Shown one piece after another: positions 4,463 to 51,241 of a stretch of DNA of 64,000 bases (position 1 is its first letter; each line of letters starts with the position of its first letter). Source of the DNA: Rhizorhapis sp. SPR117 (lineage in GTDB: Bacteria; Pseudomonadota; Alphaproteobacteria; Sphingomonadales; Sphingomonadaceae); contig NZ_JAKKIE010000004.1 in assembly GCF_021742065.1 (NCBI RefSeq), forward strand, positions 1 to 64,000. The letters are read 5' to 3'. The notes under the pieces were generated by a model. It saw nothing but the letters and a program-made list of their open reading frames with translations. It was not told the origin of the DNA and searched no databases. Position numbers and translations under genes: made by a program.

Positions 4463-4490
4463 CGTCGTCCCTGCCTTCGCAGGGACGACG
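4463..4490. repeat. Palindromic hairpin repeat, left flank of the GIY-YIG gene
   Basis: Perfect 12-bp inverted repeat CGTCGTCCCTGC and GCAGGGACGACG around a CTTC loop. A 25-base segment of it recurs in the same orientation at 4834-4858, on the other side of the nuclease gene. It belongs to a hairpin family seen at 33784, 44910 and 44967 (core CCYGC-CTTC-GCRGG followed by GACGA or GACGG). Confidence 0.85.
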
Positions 4491-4513
4491 GCATTAAAAT
4501 GGTGATGAACTGA

Positions 4514-4807
4514 ATGGATAAAGGCGGTTGGGTCTATATTCTTGCAAGCCGTTACCGGGGGACGCTTTATATCGGCGTTACGGCAAATCTGGCGCAGCGC
4601 ATTTGGCAGCATCGCAATGGCATGGGTTCCGATCATGTGCGGAAATATGATGTGTTCAGGCTCGTCTATACCGAACCTCACACAATCATTCAGGAAGCCA
4701 TCCAACGCGAAAAGCAGTTGAAGCGCTGGAAGCGGGATTGGAAGATCAGACTGGTTGAGGAACAGAATCCGGATTGGGTTGACCTGTTCGATCTCTTGAA
4801 TGCGTGA
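4514..4807 (+). CDS. Stand-alone GIY-YIG domain nuclease
   Basis: Single-domain GIY-YIG protein of 97 residues. The signature is VYILASRYRGTLYIGVT near residues 7-23, followed by the catalytic-region HRNG and a basic KQLKRWKRDWKI stretch typical of the UvrC/YhbQ-like small family. Such proteins are predicted metal-dependent nucleases; the biological role of this type is not established. The ribosome binding site is weak. The gene is bracketed by two near-identical palindromic repeats (4463-4490 and 4834-4857), so gene plus repeats may be a mobile unit. Confidence 0.85.
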   Translation: MDKGGWVYILASRYRGTLYIGVTANLAQRIWQHRNGMGSDHVRKYDVFRLVYTEPHTIIQEAIQREKQLKRWKRDWKIRLVEEQNPDWVDLFDLLNA

Positions 4808-4833
4808 TCGGCCTTGGCGAAAAAGGCAGCGGG

Positions 4834-4857
4834 GTCCCTGCCTTCGCAGGGACGACG
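4834..4857. repeat. Palindromic hairpin repeat, right flank of the GIY-YIG gene
   Basis: Inverted repeat GTCCCTGC and GCAGGGAC around a CTTC loop, followed by GACGG. It is the direct-orientation counterpart of the repeat at 4463-4490. Confidence 0.85.
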
Positions 4858-33768: not shown

Positions 33769-33783
33769 GGTGGCGGGAGATGG

Positions 33784-33803
33784 ATTCCCGCCTGCGCGGG
33801 AAT
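33784..33803. repeat. Palindromic hairpin repeat
   Basis: ATTCCCGC, loop CTGC, GCGGGAAT, followed by GACGAA. Same hairpin family as at 4463, 4834, 44910 and 44967. It lies 15 bases after the dnaN stop and might serve as a transcript end. Confidence 0.75.
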
Positions 33804-33862
33804 GACGAACATTTTGATGATACTACCGGTGTGGAGGCCGTGTGAGCCTTCATCTATTGCAC

Positions 33863-44774: not shown

Positions 44775-45156
44775 ACGCCTAGAATGGTGGAATTGAAGTT
44801 CGCGACATTGGAAGGCCGTCACCCTGAAACAAGTTGGCAATTGTGCCCTTGAAACATGTAGCCAATCTCCCTCTCCCCTGTGGGGATCGTTGCATAATTT
44901 CATTTTACCGTCATCCCCGCGAAGGCGGGGATCCATCTCCTGACCTGACCGCTTGATTTTACGTCGGGAGATGGGTTCCCGCCTTCGCGGGAACGACGAA
45001 AATCAGGAAATGTACGAATTATGCAATAGTCCCTTCAGGGGAGGGCTATGATGGCGAGCCCAGCCTACTTGTCGCAACGGTATGATTCCCAAACAAGTTC
45101 AGCATGATGATTCTTATGTGACGAACGGAAGTGGAGTAACCTAAACTCATCACGCT
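44775..45156. other. Non-coding region holding the nested inverted repeat
   Basis: 382 bases between the PilZ gene and the LysR gene, convergent at their ends. Apart from the inverted repeat at 44873-45043, no gene, promoter or RNA was recognised. Confidence 0.6.
44873..45043. repeat. 171-bp nested inverted repeat (MITE/BIME-like)
   Basis: Outer arms 44873-44899 and 45017-45043 pair as CTCCCCTG, GGGA and TTGCATAATT against their complements. Inner arms 44910-44940 and 44967-44997 (31 bases each) match with about four or five differences, which preserve each local hairpin. The spacer is about 25 bases. The inner units belong to the same palindrome family as at 4463 and 33784. No transposase frame is inside. 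Confidence 0.8.
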
Positions 45157-46118: not shown

Positions 46119-47267
46119 ATGCTGGACGCGCTGGATTTCGCGCTGGGCGACAATGCCGATATGATTCGGGAGAGCACTGCGCGTTTTGCTGTCGACAGAA
46201 TTGCTCCGCTGGCGGCCAGGATTGATGCAGATGACTGGTTTCCACGCGAACTTTGGCCTGCGATGGGCGAACTGGGCCTGCATGGGATTACGGTCGAGGA
46301 AGAATGGGGCGGTCTGGGCCTTGGATATCTGGAGCATGTAGTCGCGGTTGAGGAAGTGTCCCGCGCATCGGCGTCCATCGGTCTTTCCTATGGCGCGCAC
46401 AGCAATCTGTGCGTCAATCAGATCCGCCGTTGGGGCAATGACGCGCAAAAGGCCAGGTATCTGCCCAAGCTAATCTCTGGTGAACATGTCGGTTCCCTTG
46501 CCATGTCGGAAGCGAATGCCGGGTCGGACGTGGTCGGCATGAAGCTGAAAGCCGACAGGAAGGGCGACCGCTATATTCTCAACGGCACGAAATTCTGGAT
46601 CACCAATGCGCCTTATGCCGACACGCTGGTCGTCTATGCCAGAACTGGCGAAGGATCGCGTGGGATAACCGCATTCCTTATTGAAAAAGACATGCCCGGC
46701 TTTTCCATCGGGCAAAAGATCGACAAGATGGGCATGCGCGGATCGCCCACCGCCGAACTGGTGTTCGACGATTGTGAAGTGCCGGCGGACAATGTCATGG
46801 GACCGGAAAATGGCGGAGTCGCCGTGTTGATGTCGGGCCTTGATTATGAGCGCGCGGTGCTGTCGGGCATTCAGTTGGGCATCATGCAGGCCTGCCTTGA
46901 CGTGGTGCTGCCCTATGTTCGGGAACGCAAACAATTTGGCAAACCCCTTGGCAGCTTTCAACTGATGCAGGCGAAAATTGCCGATATGTACGTCGCCCTG
47001 AATTCAGCGCGTGCCTACGTCTATATCGTGGCGCGCAATTGCGATGCGGGAAACACAACCCGCTTCGATGCGGCAGGTGCGATCCTGCTGGCGAGCGAGA
47101 ATGCCGTGAAGGTCAGCCTTGAAGCAATTCAGGCGTTGGGCGGCGCGGGTTATACGAAGGATTGGCCGGTCGAACGCTTCATGCGCGATGCCAAGCTGCT
47201 CGACATCGGTGCAGGCACCAACGAGATTCGCCGGATGCTGATCGGGCGGGAGTTGATCGGGGCATGA
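46119..47267 (+). CDS. liuA: Isovaleryl-CoA dehydrogenase
   Basis: 382-residue acyl-CoA dehydrogenase. The catalytic glutamate position is that of isovaleryl-CoA dehydrogenase: [15 protein letters not shown] has Glu in helix G, while the usual MCAD position reads GAGTNEIRR, where the Glu is replaced by a small residue. FAD and substrate motifs include [17 protein letters not shown] and [16 protein letters not shown]. First gene of the leucine operon; a GAGGA site precedes the ATG. Its stop overlaps the next start (ATGA). Confidence 0.92.
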
Positions 47268-48865
47268 GCGCGCCTGTGCTGGACACGCGCATCGCTACCG
47301 ACAGCGAAAGTTTTCGCGCCAATGCCGAACATAATCGAGCGCTGCGTGACGAGCTTTATGCGCGGGTGAGCCAGGCAGCCTCAGGCGGTTCGGAAAAACA
47401 TCGGGAGCGCCATGCTGCGCGTGGCAAGCTGTTGCCGCGGGAACGGGTGGAGCGCCTGCTTGATACCGGTTCGGCTTTTCTGGAGATCGGCCAGCTTGCC
47501 GCGGGCGACATGTATCATGGTGAAGTTCCCGGCGCGGGCCTGATCACGGGGATCGGTCGCGTGTCGGGGCGGCAGGTGATGATCGTGTGTAATGATGCGA
47601 CGGTGAAGGGGGGGACCTATTACCCCATCACCGTTAAAAAGCATCTGCGTGCGCAGGAAATAGCGGCGGAGAACCGCTTGCCGTGCATCTATCTGGTCGA
47701 TTCGGGCGGTGCGAACCTGCCGCATCAGGCAGAGGTTTTTCCCGACCGGGAGCATTTCGGGCGCATCTTTTTCAATCAGGCGCAGATGTCGGCCAAGGGC
47801 ATCCCCCAGATTGCGTGCGTCATGGGCAGTTGCACGGCGGGCGGGGCGTATGTGCCTGCCATGTCGGATGAAACTGTGATCGTGCGCAATCAAGGAACGA
47901 TATTTTTGGCCGGACCGCCATTGGTGAAGGCCGCGACTGGTGAAGAAATCAGCGCCGAGGAACTGGGTGGCGCGGAAACCCATGGGCGCCGGTCGGGTGT
48001 TGTCGACCATGTTGCGGAAAACGACGAACATGCGTTGTCGATCGTGCGCGACATCATTTCCACGCTGCCCGAAGATCGCGTGCCCGATGTGGCGATGAAA
48101 GACCCGCGTCCGCCGAAATACGCGCCGGAGGAACTTTACGGCATCATCCCCGACGATGTCCGCGCACCTTATGATGTCCACGAAGTCATTGCCCGCATCG
48201 TCGATGGCAGCGAATTTCATGAATTCAAGGCGCTTTACGGCAGTTCGCTGGTCTGCGGTTTTGCCCATATCTGGGGCATGCCGGTGGCGATTCTCGCCAA
48301 CAACGGGGTGCTGTTTTCCGAAAGTGCGCAGAAAGGGGCGCATTTCATTGAATTGGCCTGCCAGCGACGGATACCCCTGTTGTTCCTTCAGAACATCTCC
48401 GGTTTCATGGTCGGTGGCAAATATGAAGCAGAGGGGATCGCCAAGCATGGGGCGAAACTCGTCACCGCCGTTGCGACCGCCAGCGTGCCCAAGGTGACGG
48501 TCCTGATCGGCGGCAGCTTCGGCGCGGGCAATTACGGCATGTGCGGGCGGGCTTATTCGCCACGCTTCCTGTTTACCTGGCCCAACAGCCGGATCAGCGT
48601 GATGGGCGGCGAACAGGCGGCGAGCGTGCTCGCCACCGTCCACCGCGACGCCAATAAATGGGATGAACGGGAGGCCGAAGCCTTCAAGGCCCCGATACGC
48701 AAGAAATATGAGGATGAAGGCAATCCATGGCATGCGACGGCACGGCTGTGGGACGATGGCGTGATTGACCCGGTGCAGACAAGGGATGTGCTGGGGCTGG
48801 CGCTTGCAGCGGCGCTAAATGCGCCGGTGCCGGAACGGGCGCAATTTGGCGTGTTCAGGATGTGA
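47264..48865 (+). CDS. liuB: Methylcrotonyl-CoA carboxylase beta (carboxyltransferase) subunit
   Basis: 533-residue carboxyltransferase that moves CO2 from biotin to 3-methylcrotonyl-CoA. Both carboxyltransferase domains are visible, for example [20 protein letters not shown] in the N half and [42 protein letters not shown] in the C half. Its start is inside the end of liuA. The operon is then interrupted by an antisense nuclease cassette before liuD. Confidence 0.93.
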
Positions 48866-48885
48866 TGGCGAGAGGACAGCGTCAT

Positions 48886-49323
48886 TCATTCCTCCCCGAG
48901 CTTGTCTCGGGGAGGAGGACCGCCCGGCGCAGCCGGGTGGTGGAGGGGCAGCCGCGTCTGAGCCGCCGCCGTAATCCCGCGCACAACCGCCTCCAGATCA
49001 TCCAGCACATCGCGGGCCGCTATGCGCAACGTCACAATCCCGGCTGTCGCAAACCATGCATCCCGCGCTGCGTCATGCTGAGGCCGCGCGCCGCTTTCGT
49101 GGCTTCGTCCGTCGATCTCGATCGCCAGTCGTGCGTCGCTGCAGTAAAAATCCAGAATATATGGTCCGGTCGGGTGCTGGCGGCGAAATTTCAAACCAGC
49201 AGGGCGTCCGCGCAAGACCTGCCAGACAAGCACCTCTGGCAGCGTCATTGCCCGGCGCAAGCCCGGGCCTTGCGGGTTACGCCGTGTCCCGCCTTGGGCG
49301 CCGTATTTTTCAACATCGTGCAA
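48886..49323 (-). CDS. DUF559 endonuclease-like protein
   Basis: 145-residue protein of the DUF559 family, a restriction-endonuclease-like (PD-(D/E)xK) fold. It contains LRRAMTLPEVLVWQVLRG, FRRQHPTGPYILDFYC with the catalytic Asp and LAIEIDGRSHESG with the catalytic E-x-D region. The likely start is a TTG at 49323, five bases after GGAGG contributed by the right repeat; ATG at 49248 is the first ATG. The last codons and stop come from the left repeat. Role unknown. Confidence 0.82.
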   Translation of the reverse strand: MHDVEKYGAQGGTRRNPQGPGLRRAMTLPEVLVWQVLRGRPAGLKFRRQHPTGPYILDFYCSDARLAIEIDGRSHESGARPQHDAARDAWFATAGIVTLRIAARDVLDDLEAVVRGITAAAQTRLPLHHPAAPGGPPPRDKLGEE

Positions 49324-49383
49324 TCACCCCTCCACCATGCTTTGCATGGTCCCCCTCCCCAAGACAAGCTTGGGGAGGAATGA
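48886..49383. mobile_element. DUF559 nuclease cassette with hairpin terminal inverted repeats
   Basis: Left terminal repeat 48886-48921 and right repeat 49348-49383 match at 33 of 36 positions in inverted orientation. Two of the three differences are a compensating pair inside the hairpin stem CCTCCCC-R-AG, CTTGT, CT-Y-GGGGAGG. Each is followed inwards by a second, different hairpin and a shared GTGGTGGAGGGG. The unit lies between liuB (stop 48865) and liuD (start 49397), in opposite orientation to the operon. Confidence 0.75.
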
Positions 49384-49396
49384 TCGGAGCCGTCCC

Positions 49397-51241
49397 ATGA
49401 TCACCTCCCTCCTTATCGCCAATCGGGGCGAAATTGCTTGCCGCATCATCCGCACCGCGCGCGCCATGGGCATTCGCACAATCGCGGTTTATTCCGATGC
49501 GGATGCGCAGGCGATGCATGTCGCCCATGCCGATGAAGCCGTGCATATCGGACCATCGCCGGCACGCGAAAGCTATCTGGTTGGTGAAAAGATCATAGCG
49601 GCCGCCAAGGCAACGGGCGCAGAGGCAATTCATCCCGGCTATGGTTTTCTTTCCGAGAACGCGGCCTTCGCGCAGGCGGTGATTGATGCTGGCCTGATCT
49701 GGGTCGGGCCAGGGCCGGACAGCATTACCGCCATGGGGTTGAAAGACGCGGCCAAGCAATTGATGCAGGACGCGGGCGTCCCCACCACGCCGGGCTATCT
49801 GGGGGACGACCAGTCCCTTGAGCGTCTTGCAAAGGAAGCGGATGCGATTGGTTATCCCGTTCTGATCAAGGCGGTCGCCGGCGGCGGCGGCAAGGGGATG
49901 CGCAAGGTCGATGCAGCGGGCGATTTTGCCGATGCGCTTGTATCGTGCCGGCGGGAGGCGGCGTCGTCCTTTGGCAATGATCATGTGCTGCTGGAAAAAT
50001 GGGTTACGAACCCGCGCCATATCGAGGTGCAGGTGTTTGGCGATACGCACGGCAATGTCGTTCATCTGTTCGAACGCGATTGCTCGCTCCAGCGCCGCCA
50101 CCAGAAAGTAATCGAGGAAGCGCCCGCGCCCGGTATGGATGCGGATACGCGTCAAGCGATCTGCGCGGCGGCGGTGCGGGCGGCCAAGGCTGTCAATTAT
50201 GTCGGCGCGGGAACGATTGAGTTCATCGCTGACGGGTCGGAAGGGCTGCGCGCCGATCGCATCTGGTTCATGGAAATGAATACAAGGCTGCAGGTCGAAC
50301 ATCCGGTGACTGAGGAAATTACCGGCGTGGACCTGGTCGAATGGCAGTTGCGCGTTGCCAGTGGCGAGGCTCTGCCAAAGCGGCAGGAGGAACTGTCTAT
50401 CAACGGTTGGGCGATGGAAGCGCGCCTCTATGCCGAAGATCCGGCCAAGGGCTTTCTGCCCAGCATCGGTCGCCTTGAAACCTTCGATCTGGGCGATGCG
50501 TACCGGATCGATACCGGGGTGGAGCAGGGTGCCGAAATATCGCCCTTTTATGATCCCATGATTGCAAAGGTCACTGCCTGGGGAGCGGATCGTGACGCCG
50601 CCCGCCTGTCGCTGGCCGAAACATTGGCGGGTAGCGCGGTGTGGCCCGTTCGGACCAATGCGGGATTTCTCGTCAAGGCGCTGGAACATCCCGCCTTTGT
50701 CGCAGCCACGATCGACACCGGCCTGATCGGGCGTGAAGGCGATGCGCTGCTTGCCGCTCAGCGACCGTCGGATGATGCGCTGGCCGACGGGGCGGCGGCG
50801 CTGGTGCATGGCGGCGACCTGAACGGTTTCCGGCTGAATGCGCCGCACAAGCGAGATGGCCATTTCCTGCTGGATGGCGAACCCGTGACAGTGCGAATTG
50901 GCGATACGACCAAAGATGGAGAGGGAGCCGATTCCATCCTGATCGCGGAAGGCGGTCAGACCTGGGAACTGACGCCCTGGCGCGCAGCGGGCGTGGAGGG
51001 GGCGGGGGCCGGTGACGGTGCGATTCTTTCACCCATGCCCGGTCGCATCATCGCCGTATCGGTTGGCCTGGGCGAACAGGTGACGAAAGGACAAAAGCTC
51101 GTCACACTGGAAGCCATGAAGATGGAACACAGTCTGATCGCACCCTTTGACGGCACGGTCGCGGAATTGAGCGCCGTTGATGGTGCTCAGATATCCGAAG
51201 GCGCGCTGCTGGCGCGGATCGAAACAGGGGATGAGAGCTAG
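49397..51241 (+). CDS. liuD: Methylcrotonyl-CoA carboxylase alpha (biotin carboxylase) subunit
   Basis: 614-residue biotin-carrying subunit. Biotin carboxylase motifs include LIANRGEIACRIIRTA, VAGGGGKGMRKV and FMEMNTRLQVEHPVTEE. The C-terminal biotinyl domain has LEAMKMEHSL, with the modified lysine. ATG at 49397 lies 13 bases after the DUF559 cassette; expression may depend on read-through from liuB or a new promoter. It carboxylates biotin for liuB. Confidence 0.95.
   Translation: MITSLLIANRGEIACRIIRTARAMGIRTIAVYSDADAQAMHVAHADEAVHIGPSPARESYLVGEKIIAAAKATGAEAIHPGYGFLSENAAFAQAVIDAGLIWVGPGPDSITAMGLKDAAKQLMQDAGVPTTPGYLGDDQSLERLAKEADAIGYPVLIKAVAGGGGKGMRKVDAAGDFADALVSCRREAASSFGNDHVLLEKWVTNPRHIEVQVFGDTHGNVVHLFERDCSLQRRHQKVIEEAPAPGMDADTRQAICAAAVRAAKAVNYVGAGTIEFIADGSEGLRADRIWFMEMNTRLQVEHPVTEEITGVDLVEWQLRVASGEALPKRQEELSINGWAMEARLYAEDPAKGFLPSIGRLETFDLGDAYRIDTGVEQGAEISPFYDPMIAKVTAWGADRDAARLSLAETLAGSAVWPVRTNAGFLVKALEHPAFVAATIDTGLIGREGDALLAAQRPSDDALADGAAALVHGGDLNGFRLNAPHKRDGHFLLDGEPVTVRIGDTTKDGEGADSILIAEGGQTWELTPWRAAGVEGAGAGDGAILSPMPGRIIAVSVGLGEQVTKGQKLVTLEAMKMEHSLIAPFDGTVAELSAVDGAQISEGALLARIETGDES

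Follow-up and report, generated by a model that had tools for sequence, protein, structure and literature searches.

REPs are abundant in many bacterial chromosomes. In organelles, the mitochondrial GC clusters and double-hairpin elements are mobile hairpin repeats for which spread by break repair has been proposed, and we know of no cognate flanked nuclease for the GC clusters. According to the available text of the 2013 census of Di Nocera (PMC3733652), tagged REPs form two super-families, and an enzyme is known for the GTAG kind alone. In the latter systems (REPtrons, REPINs) the RAYT gene is flanked by palindromes which also occur dispersed, often as inverted pairs, and the genes are repeat-specific. 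The CGTC-tagged palindromes are predominant in alphaproteobacteria and are mostly inverted dimers; in the same text no transposase gene flanked by CGTC REPs is recorded and a dedicated transposase is reported lacking. The available part of another source names EDxHD (I-Bth0305I) and GIY-YIG among the homing endonuclease families (PMC3943268). As for DUF559 itself, the accessible portion of PMC12907096 makes the Caulobacter protein VsrA responsible for an SOS response in the absence of cytosine methyltransferase, mismatch repair being the reading of its authors. In titles and the starts of abstracts, with few subscription journals covered, neither an earlier link of DUF559 or GIY-YIG genes to REPs nor GIY-YIG together with 'repetitive extragenic palindromic' was found.

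The DUF559 gene described here, in our judgement, probably encodes the enzyme of a REP/REPIN-like selfish element in which a homing-type nuclease takes the place of the transposase. Since most of the examined relatives of the gene show the same pairing with REPs, at changing genome positions, the results suggest that a large class of bacterial repeats owes its spread to a cutting enzyme and not to a transposase.

The DUF559 reading frame of the liu operon and its repeats

The window, i.e. the whole analysed stretch of 64,000 nucleotides from Rhizorhapis sp. SPR117, carries the following features at the junction of two liu genes.

47162..48865, + strand: liuB-like gene, a listed ORF and the left neighbour of the insertion; its true start is probably further in
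48886..49323, - strand: DUF559 (PF04480) ORF, listed with a TTG start; nuclease domain at about 48960-49263
48891..48948, + strand: left REP, type A; hairpin 1 at 48890-48916, hairpin 2 at 48919-48941, inner G-rich arm GGAGGGG at 48942-48948
49327..49378, - strand: right REP, type A, inverted copy; hairpin 1 at 49354-49378, hairpin 2 at 49334-49350, inner arm at 49327-49333
49397..51241, + strand: liuD-like gene, the right neighbour of the insertion

The ORF was identified as DUF559 by Pfam (PF04480, 82.7 bits against a gathering cut-off of 20.6, E=2e-23); its matches were solely DUF559, MTES_1575 and DUF2726, and no HUH tyrosine transposase (Y1_Tnp) was present between the REPs. With 145 aa and the domain at 21-119 the protein is about one domain long, and the long DNA-binding region which the EDxHD homing endonuclease has beside its catalytic domain is absent from it. 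In profile comparison it matched 3HRL (E=2e-29), which is an endonuclease-like protein, and, at E=4e-5, the homing endonuclease I-Bth0305I through its catalytic domain (3R3P), followed by PvuRts1I (E=0.0045). Foldseek, run with a structure model of mean pLDDT 81, placed the same two entries at the top (E=8e-7 for 3HRL; 3e-5 and TMt 0.78 for I-Bth0305I), with PvuRts1I at rank 6 and Vsr at rank 12 among mitoribosomal proteins of Toxoplasma. Unlike RAYTs, which are HUH tyrosine transposases, the DUF559 enzyme is a nuclease of PD-(D/E)XK/EDxHD type. PADLOC gave a weak DpdF match alone for DUF559, and Rfam returned no match in 48800-49450.

The initial annotation had described a complete antisense DUF559 gene between liuB and liuD. 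The antisense position was confirmed, while the completeness is doubtful: the N-terminal segment common to the relatives, MLxDxAPKAxxGTxxKARxLRR, is divided in the window between two reading frames, one giving MLKNTAPKAGHGVTRKARACAGQ* and the other ...GLRRAMTLPEV, from which the ORF with its TTG start is probably a copy frameshifted near the start, or one affected by a sequencing error. This split would suit a reading in which the cassette of the window is an old, fixed and decaying insertion without a present role. That reading is compatible with a REP-borne nuclease element as the explanation for the family, and our opinion on it is evenly balanced, the nuclease domain and the conserved residues of the window copy being intact; D37, E48, D50 and H54 (numbered from the domain start) were invariant among 30 aligned sequences.

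The repeats were seen as an inverted pair, 48874-48921 and 49348-49395, complementary at 83% over 48 nt, which was the sole inverted pair reported in 48600-49700 at a minimum length of 14. Within it the 36-nt core described earlier (TCATTCCTCCCC.../...GGGGAGGNGGACC) could be confirmed, including its three differing positions, two of which (G/C to A/T) preserve the pairing of the stem. These 36 bp proved to be the outer part of larger double-hairpin elements of 58 and 52 bp, each consisting of hairpin 1 (CCTCCCC..GGGGAGG) followed by GGACC-hairpin 2-GGTGGAGGGG. Both elements folded better than their shuffled versions (z -5.0 and -5.1; 0 of 200 shuffles equal). Among 129 different type A elements a hairpin 2 stem of at least 5 was found in 77%, against 5% of shuffles, so the pairing is retained while the sequence changes, in line with the selection on structure that had been proposed. 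Unlike the GTAG REPs, the repeats of DUF559 genes combine a hairpin whose arms are of the CCTCCCC, CCCTCTCCC or CCCCTCCC kind with a second G-rich arm, and no GTAG tag was present at the hairpin foot of either of the two window elements. As a separate observation, in the flanks of L001-L150 the inner G-rich arm of many elements mirrored the G-rich arm of the hairpin (GGGGAGG / GGAGGGG), and T frequently replaced the A (GGTGGGG, GGGTGAGGG).

The repeats also supply parts of the gene. The inner arm of the right REP (49327-49333) stands directly upstream of the DUF559 gene, and in relatives such as L001 and L002 the GGAGG of the inner arm lies shortly upstream of an ATG. The C-terminal tail of the protein is, as had been stated, encoded within the left repeat, and in L001-L005 within the counterpart of that repeat.

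Flanking hairpins of DUF559 genes and the dispersed REP families

In order to score the flanks of DUF559 genes, the best inverted match between the 260-nt flanks of each gene was taken. In 1082 control windows from the loci the 99th percentile of this score was 14.0 and the highest value 18.5; in a stricter control, with flanks of different loci compared in direct orientation, since palindromic arms alone can match, the 95th and 99th percentiles were 14.5 and 19.0. Four samples were scored. The first, drawn from the genome collection by a sequence search, comprised 80 loci (L001-L080), two of which were left out for short flanks; they had been retrieved with six peptide patterns, one of them (HHPAAPGG) encoded by the repeat, a source of bias that is absent from L081-L150 and from the later samples. 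In this first set 67 of the 78 scored loci had inverted flanks at 14.0 or more, and 58 at 18.5 or more. The second set (L081-L150) consisted of 70 loci taken by domain score from DUF559-carrying genomes of the family of Sphingobium cyanobacteriorum, where DUF559 is present in 127 of 149 genomes; 64 of them reached 14.0 and 62 reached 18.5. In the phylum of a Phycisphaeraceae genome the strong matches were scored, 7 of 30 loci with weak matches being left out: 19 of 23 reached 14.0 and 14 reached 18.5, the 66 controls scoring 12.0 at most. That this sample also contains weak DUF559 matches in long frames, outside the scored set, is a point against the preferred explanation. Finally, in the genus Caulobacter 27 of 30 loci passed 14.0, all 27 with 16.0 or more, and 22 passed 18.5, with 85 controls at 15.5 or below.

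Taken together, matching inverted flanks (at least 14.0) were found for 177 of the 201 scored DUF559 genes; the 24 genes without them count against the preferred explanation. The layout of a gene between inverted hairpins was seen in most of the Sphingomonadales and Caulobacterales loci read, and other hairpins (CCCTCTCCC..GGGAGAGGG and CCCCTCCC..GGGAGGGG) flank some DUF559 loci of Verrucomicrobia, Planctomycetes, Gammaproteobacteria and candidate phyla. Other copies with the same boundaries, which the initial annotation proposed to look for, were seen at other loci as cassettes of like build. The DUF559 gene of L347 in the phylum sample lies within an inverted repeat much longer than is usual, about 148 nt (score 123). 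The LexA box GTTC-N7-GTTC, taken from the available text of PMC12907096 and sought as a marker of relatives of the Caulobacter vsrA, occurred at 2 of the 30 loci of the Caulobacter sample (L422, L434) and identified nothing as such.

The repeats are not confined to the cassettes. With a loose type A pattern 176 copies were counted in Asticcacaulis aquaticus (G026) against 6 for the reversed control, the pattern being noisy in GC-rich genomes (160 matches and 120 in the reversed control for G015). A stricter pattern, whose controls were near 0 save in G064 (159 matches, control 25) and G127 (112, control 25), gave up to 225 copies among the 149 genomes (G102, control 0). In four fully listed genomes with 61 elements, 12 facing pairs lay less than 150 bp apart and none in other orders; four further facing pairs were 150-500 bp apart, and three of these (G069, G089, G130) have a DUF559 gene between them. 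This alters the initial picture: the repeats are members of dispersed REP families which often appear as gene-less inverted pairs. Likewise, a single element private to the liu operon is ruled out by the REPs and flanked genes at many loci. What stands of the proposed mobile cassette is a hairpin-bounded unit inserted between liuB and liuD which resembles cassettes elsewhere. The initial annotation had named repeats occurring genome-wide, independent of DUF559 genes, as a reason to drop the idea; taken to the letter, they do occur genome-wide. REP/RAYT systems, however, show just this pattern, and both copy number and type of the REPs track DUF559.

For the copy number, at least 9 type A REPs were present in 43 of 127 genomes with DUF559 and in 0 of 22 without it (Fisher p=3e-4, uncorrected for kinship); the latter 22, two of which (G175, G181) were assigned by elimination, had at most 8 each. 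All 21 genomes with at least 30 type A REPs have DUF559, and over the 149 genomes the correlation of DUF559 with the type A copy number was rho 0.60, again uncorrected for kinship. The 49 genomes with one DUF559 gene had a median of 0 type A REPs, type A alone being counted, which speaks against the preferred explanation. For the type, a tree was used of 105 DUF559 domains, those among 163 rows whose two flanks gave one type, with 48 of the 102 inner branches unresolved. The four REP types required 14 changes on it, against a mean of 46.2 for shuffled labels, and 0 of 200 shuffles was as low. In G127 and G067, with several DUF559 genes each, several REP kinds occur, each next to its own gene.

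A different enzyme, a RAYT or an IS200/IS605 transposase, might instead spread the REPs, DUF559 being a passenger between two REPs of a composite unit. According to the accessible text of PMC3733652, REP/RAYT systems with GTAG REPs behave in this manner, and the presence of Y1_Tnp did correlate with REP copies (rho 0.34), with a match in 10 of the 21 REP-rich genomes, a point against the nuclease as the mobiliser. The other 11 REP-rich genomes had no Y1_Tnp match, however, and around Y1_Tnp genes of the Sphingomonadaceae set inverted flanks were found at 0 of 8 scored loci (2 of 10, incomplete, left out); these counts weaken the case for a RAYT as mobiliser. Nor would a passenger be expected to keep its own REP type across the DUF559 tree. 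We regard this explanation as unlikely.

Empty, exchanged and copied sites

A LiuB match was found in 135 of the 149 genomes, and the liuB-liuD side was read in 70 related loci. A DUF559 cassette was present at 9 of these. Empty junctions of 2-11 bp, looked for as sites without the cassette, were found at 17, and two further junctions of 58-60 bp had no REP. Single loci had a hairpin only (L181), one REP (L183), a decayed cassette with both REPs (L217) or a CGTC pair (L161). A GIY-YIG cassette occupied five junctions, that of L219 having a type A REP next to it, and nine contained other sequence, that of L220 resembling a CGTC cassette by DNA alone. At the remaining 24 loci liuD was not within 1.5 kb. 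The DUF559 gene was opposite to the liu genes in 7 cases, as in the window, and in the same direction in 9. On the tree the copies from liu junctions tend to group together (7 changes against 14.3 when shuffled), which indicates that some are old residents and does not favour the preferred explanation; this partial clustering and the decayed cassette of L217 fit the view that the copy in the window is itself a decaying resident.

Cassette junctions of G127 were also compared in five relatives, the gene names serA, yqeY-like and dnaG being read from the flanks. On the serA side (L132) a cassette was present in G305, a gene-less pair of another type in G292, CGTC hairpins in G257 (as a pair) and in G227 (one alone), and 866 bp of other sequence in G355. 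Between the yqeY-like gene and dnaG (L134) the cassette was common to G292, G305 had a different DUF559 cassette, G227 was empty with no gap, and G257 and G355 carried 834 and 753 bp of other sequence. The cassette of L133 was likewise common to G292, and no REP was seen in G227 and G355. For L131 the flanks were about 3.5 kb apart in the closest genome, G292, with no adjacent flanks among the matches listed and hence no empty site to be read there, and both flanks of the L115 site were matched by no relative. In the reverse comparison, six of the seven G292 sites with a type C pair were read in the sister genome G127: one had a single hairpin (L381), one no REP (L385) and four a pair of another family (L382, L383, L384, L387). 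At L381, compared with L402, the sister keeps exactly one hairpin in place of the whole REP pair, a state comparable to the solo LTR that remains when two flanking repeats, here the two hairpins, recombine.

Copying within one genome was seen in G159, where two cassettes at unrelated sites share 96.3% identity over 491 bp and their surroundings, about 1 kb on either side, show no similarity beyond that. A target-site duplication was not seen by eye at the L143/L144 or the L134 junction, few close relatives being at hand; this would fit repair more than transposition, though close pairs are few. The 10-30 nt beside the REPs differ between sites, which is a point against the preferred explanation.

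The gene-less pairs were followed in Asticcacaulis aquaticus, in 20 regions picked as facing pairs from the loose pattern. Nineteen were gene-less pairs, 17 of them with spacers of 43-49 nt, and their 38 inner ends agreed with the end of a DUF559 cassette of the same genome at a mean of 8.7 of 14 positions, against 4.2 for shuffled ends; 18 ends reached at least 10 of 14, where 0 were expected. By this resemblance the pairs look like non-autonomous derivatives of the DUF559 cassette.

The junctions bear on one more alternative, in which DUF559 is a nuclease of repair or restriction type (VSP-like) and the REPs, as terminators or because the slots tolerate insertion, gather in shared intergenic slots with no functional link to the gene. 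The SOS effect of VsrA without cytosine methyltransferase, as far as the available text of PMC12907096 goes, and the several REP kinds occupying the same junctions would agree with this. Against it stand the flanks, inverted and type-matched in samples from several phyla, and the inner ends which gene-less pairs have in common with a cassette, and we regard this alternative as unlikely.

The preferred reading remains that of a nuclease-carrying REP element. Comparison of the sequences establishes the association, the type specificity, the unit structure, the empty and exchanged sites and a recent copy in one genome. The proposed unit would be REP - gene - inverted REP, with inverted REP pairs (about 100-150 bp) and solo REPs as gene-less kin, and it would enter intergenic junctions and later be lost again. 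The DUF559 protein, of EDxHD/Vsr fold and homing type, may recognise the REP hairpin, probably extruded or single-stranded, and may cut or nick at the REP or at the target; the break would then be filled by host repair copying the REP-bounded element, without a transposase. On this view the window copy is one such insertion in the liu operon, possibly no longer active. Like free-standing homing endonuclease genes (EDxHD I-Bth0305I; GIY-YIG), these are small intergenic genes with related catalytic domains and empty sites in relatives; unlike them, DUF559 is bounded by hairpin repeats and has many gene-less derivatives, and a homing-type use of targets is putative here. If the mechanism is true, DUF559 gains a biological role, and transposase-free spread would become open to study by means of a substrate of 60 nt and a gene some 130 codons long.

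GIY-YIG genes and CGTC-tagged REPs

A second nuclease cassette was observed in the window, at 4463-4857.

4463..4489, + strand: CGTC-tagged hairpin, left flank of the GIY-YIG gene
4514..4807, + strand: GIY-YIG nuclease gene, 97 aa (PF01541, E=2e-16)
4831..4857, - strand: CGTC-tagged hairpin, right flank, inverted

Its flanks have the CGTC tag and lack the CCA tail. At the five liu junctions with a GIY-YIG cassette the gene stands between inverted CGTC-stem-CCA-like hairpins, one tag being TGTC. Twenty small GIY-YIG loci were then selected by frame length, not by flank, and scanned for CGTC elements with stems of 7-12 and tails CC, CT, TC or CA. Inverted flanks were found in 17 of them, and CGTC elements on both sides in 9, an arrangement seen in none of 70 DUF559 loci and none of 58 control windows; these nine recall the CGTC REPs of the 2013 census. 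The REP form itself (CGTC - stem of 8-9 bp - loop of 4-5 - CCA tail) was seen as well, e.g. as CGTCATTCCCGCGAAAGCGGGAATCCA flanking L252 on both sides. In the top GIY-YIG loci 23 of 29 scored (1 of 30 left out) had inverted flanks, many of CCGTTCG type. The pairing of GIY-YIG with CGTC is less firm than that of DUF559, and the link at the genome level is weak (rho 0.32 with the CGTC copy number, five exceptions having at least 10 CGTC copies and at most one GIY-YIG match).

A wider reading of both pairings would be that at least three unrelated nuclease folds serve bacterial REPs: the HUH RAYTs (GTAG), DUF559 (cross-phylum C/G-rich hairpins) and the small GIY-YIG proteins (CGTC, CGTTCG), the two latter in transposase-free units cut at hairpins and copied by host repair, the kinds swapping in the same intergenic ports. 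We give this reading an even chance. If true, it would supply the missing enzyme of the CGTC REPs, and if small nucleases of homing fold drive other REP kinds, there would be a testable mechanism for a large part of bacterial repeat biology.

Two further places in the window carry CGTC hairpins. At 44870-45046 a longer inverted repeat, CCCTCTCCCC...TTGCATAATT / AATTATGCAA...GGGGAGGG, encloses a pair of CGTC hairpins (44909-44998), which gives the impression of one element inserted into another, and at 33781-33807, on the - strand, there is a lone CGTC hairpin with no partner nearby.
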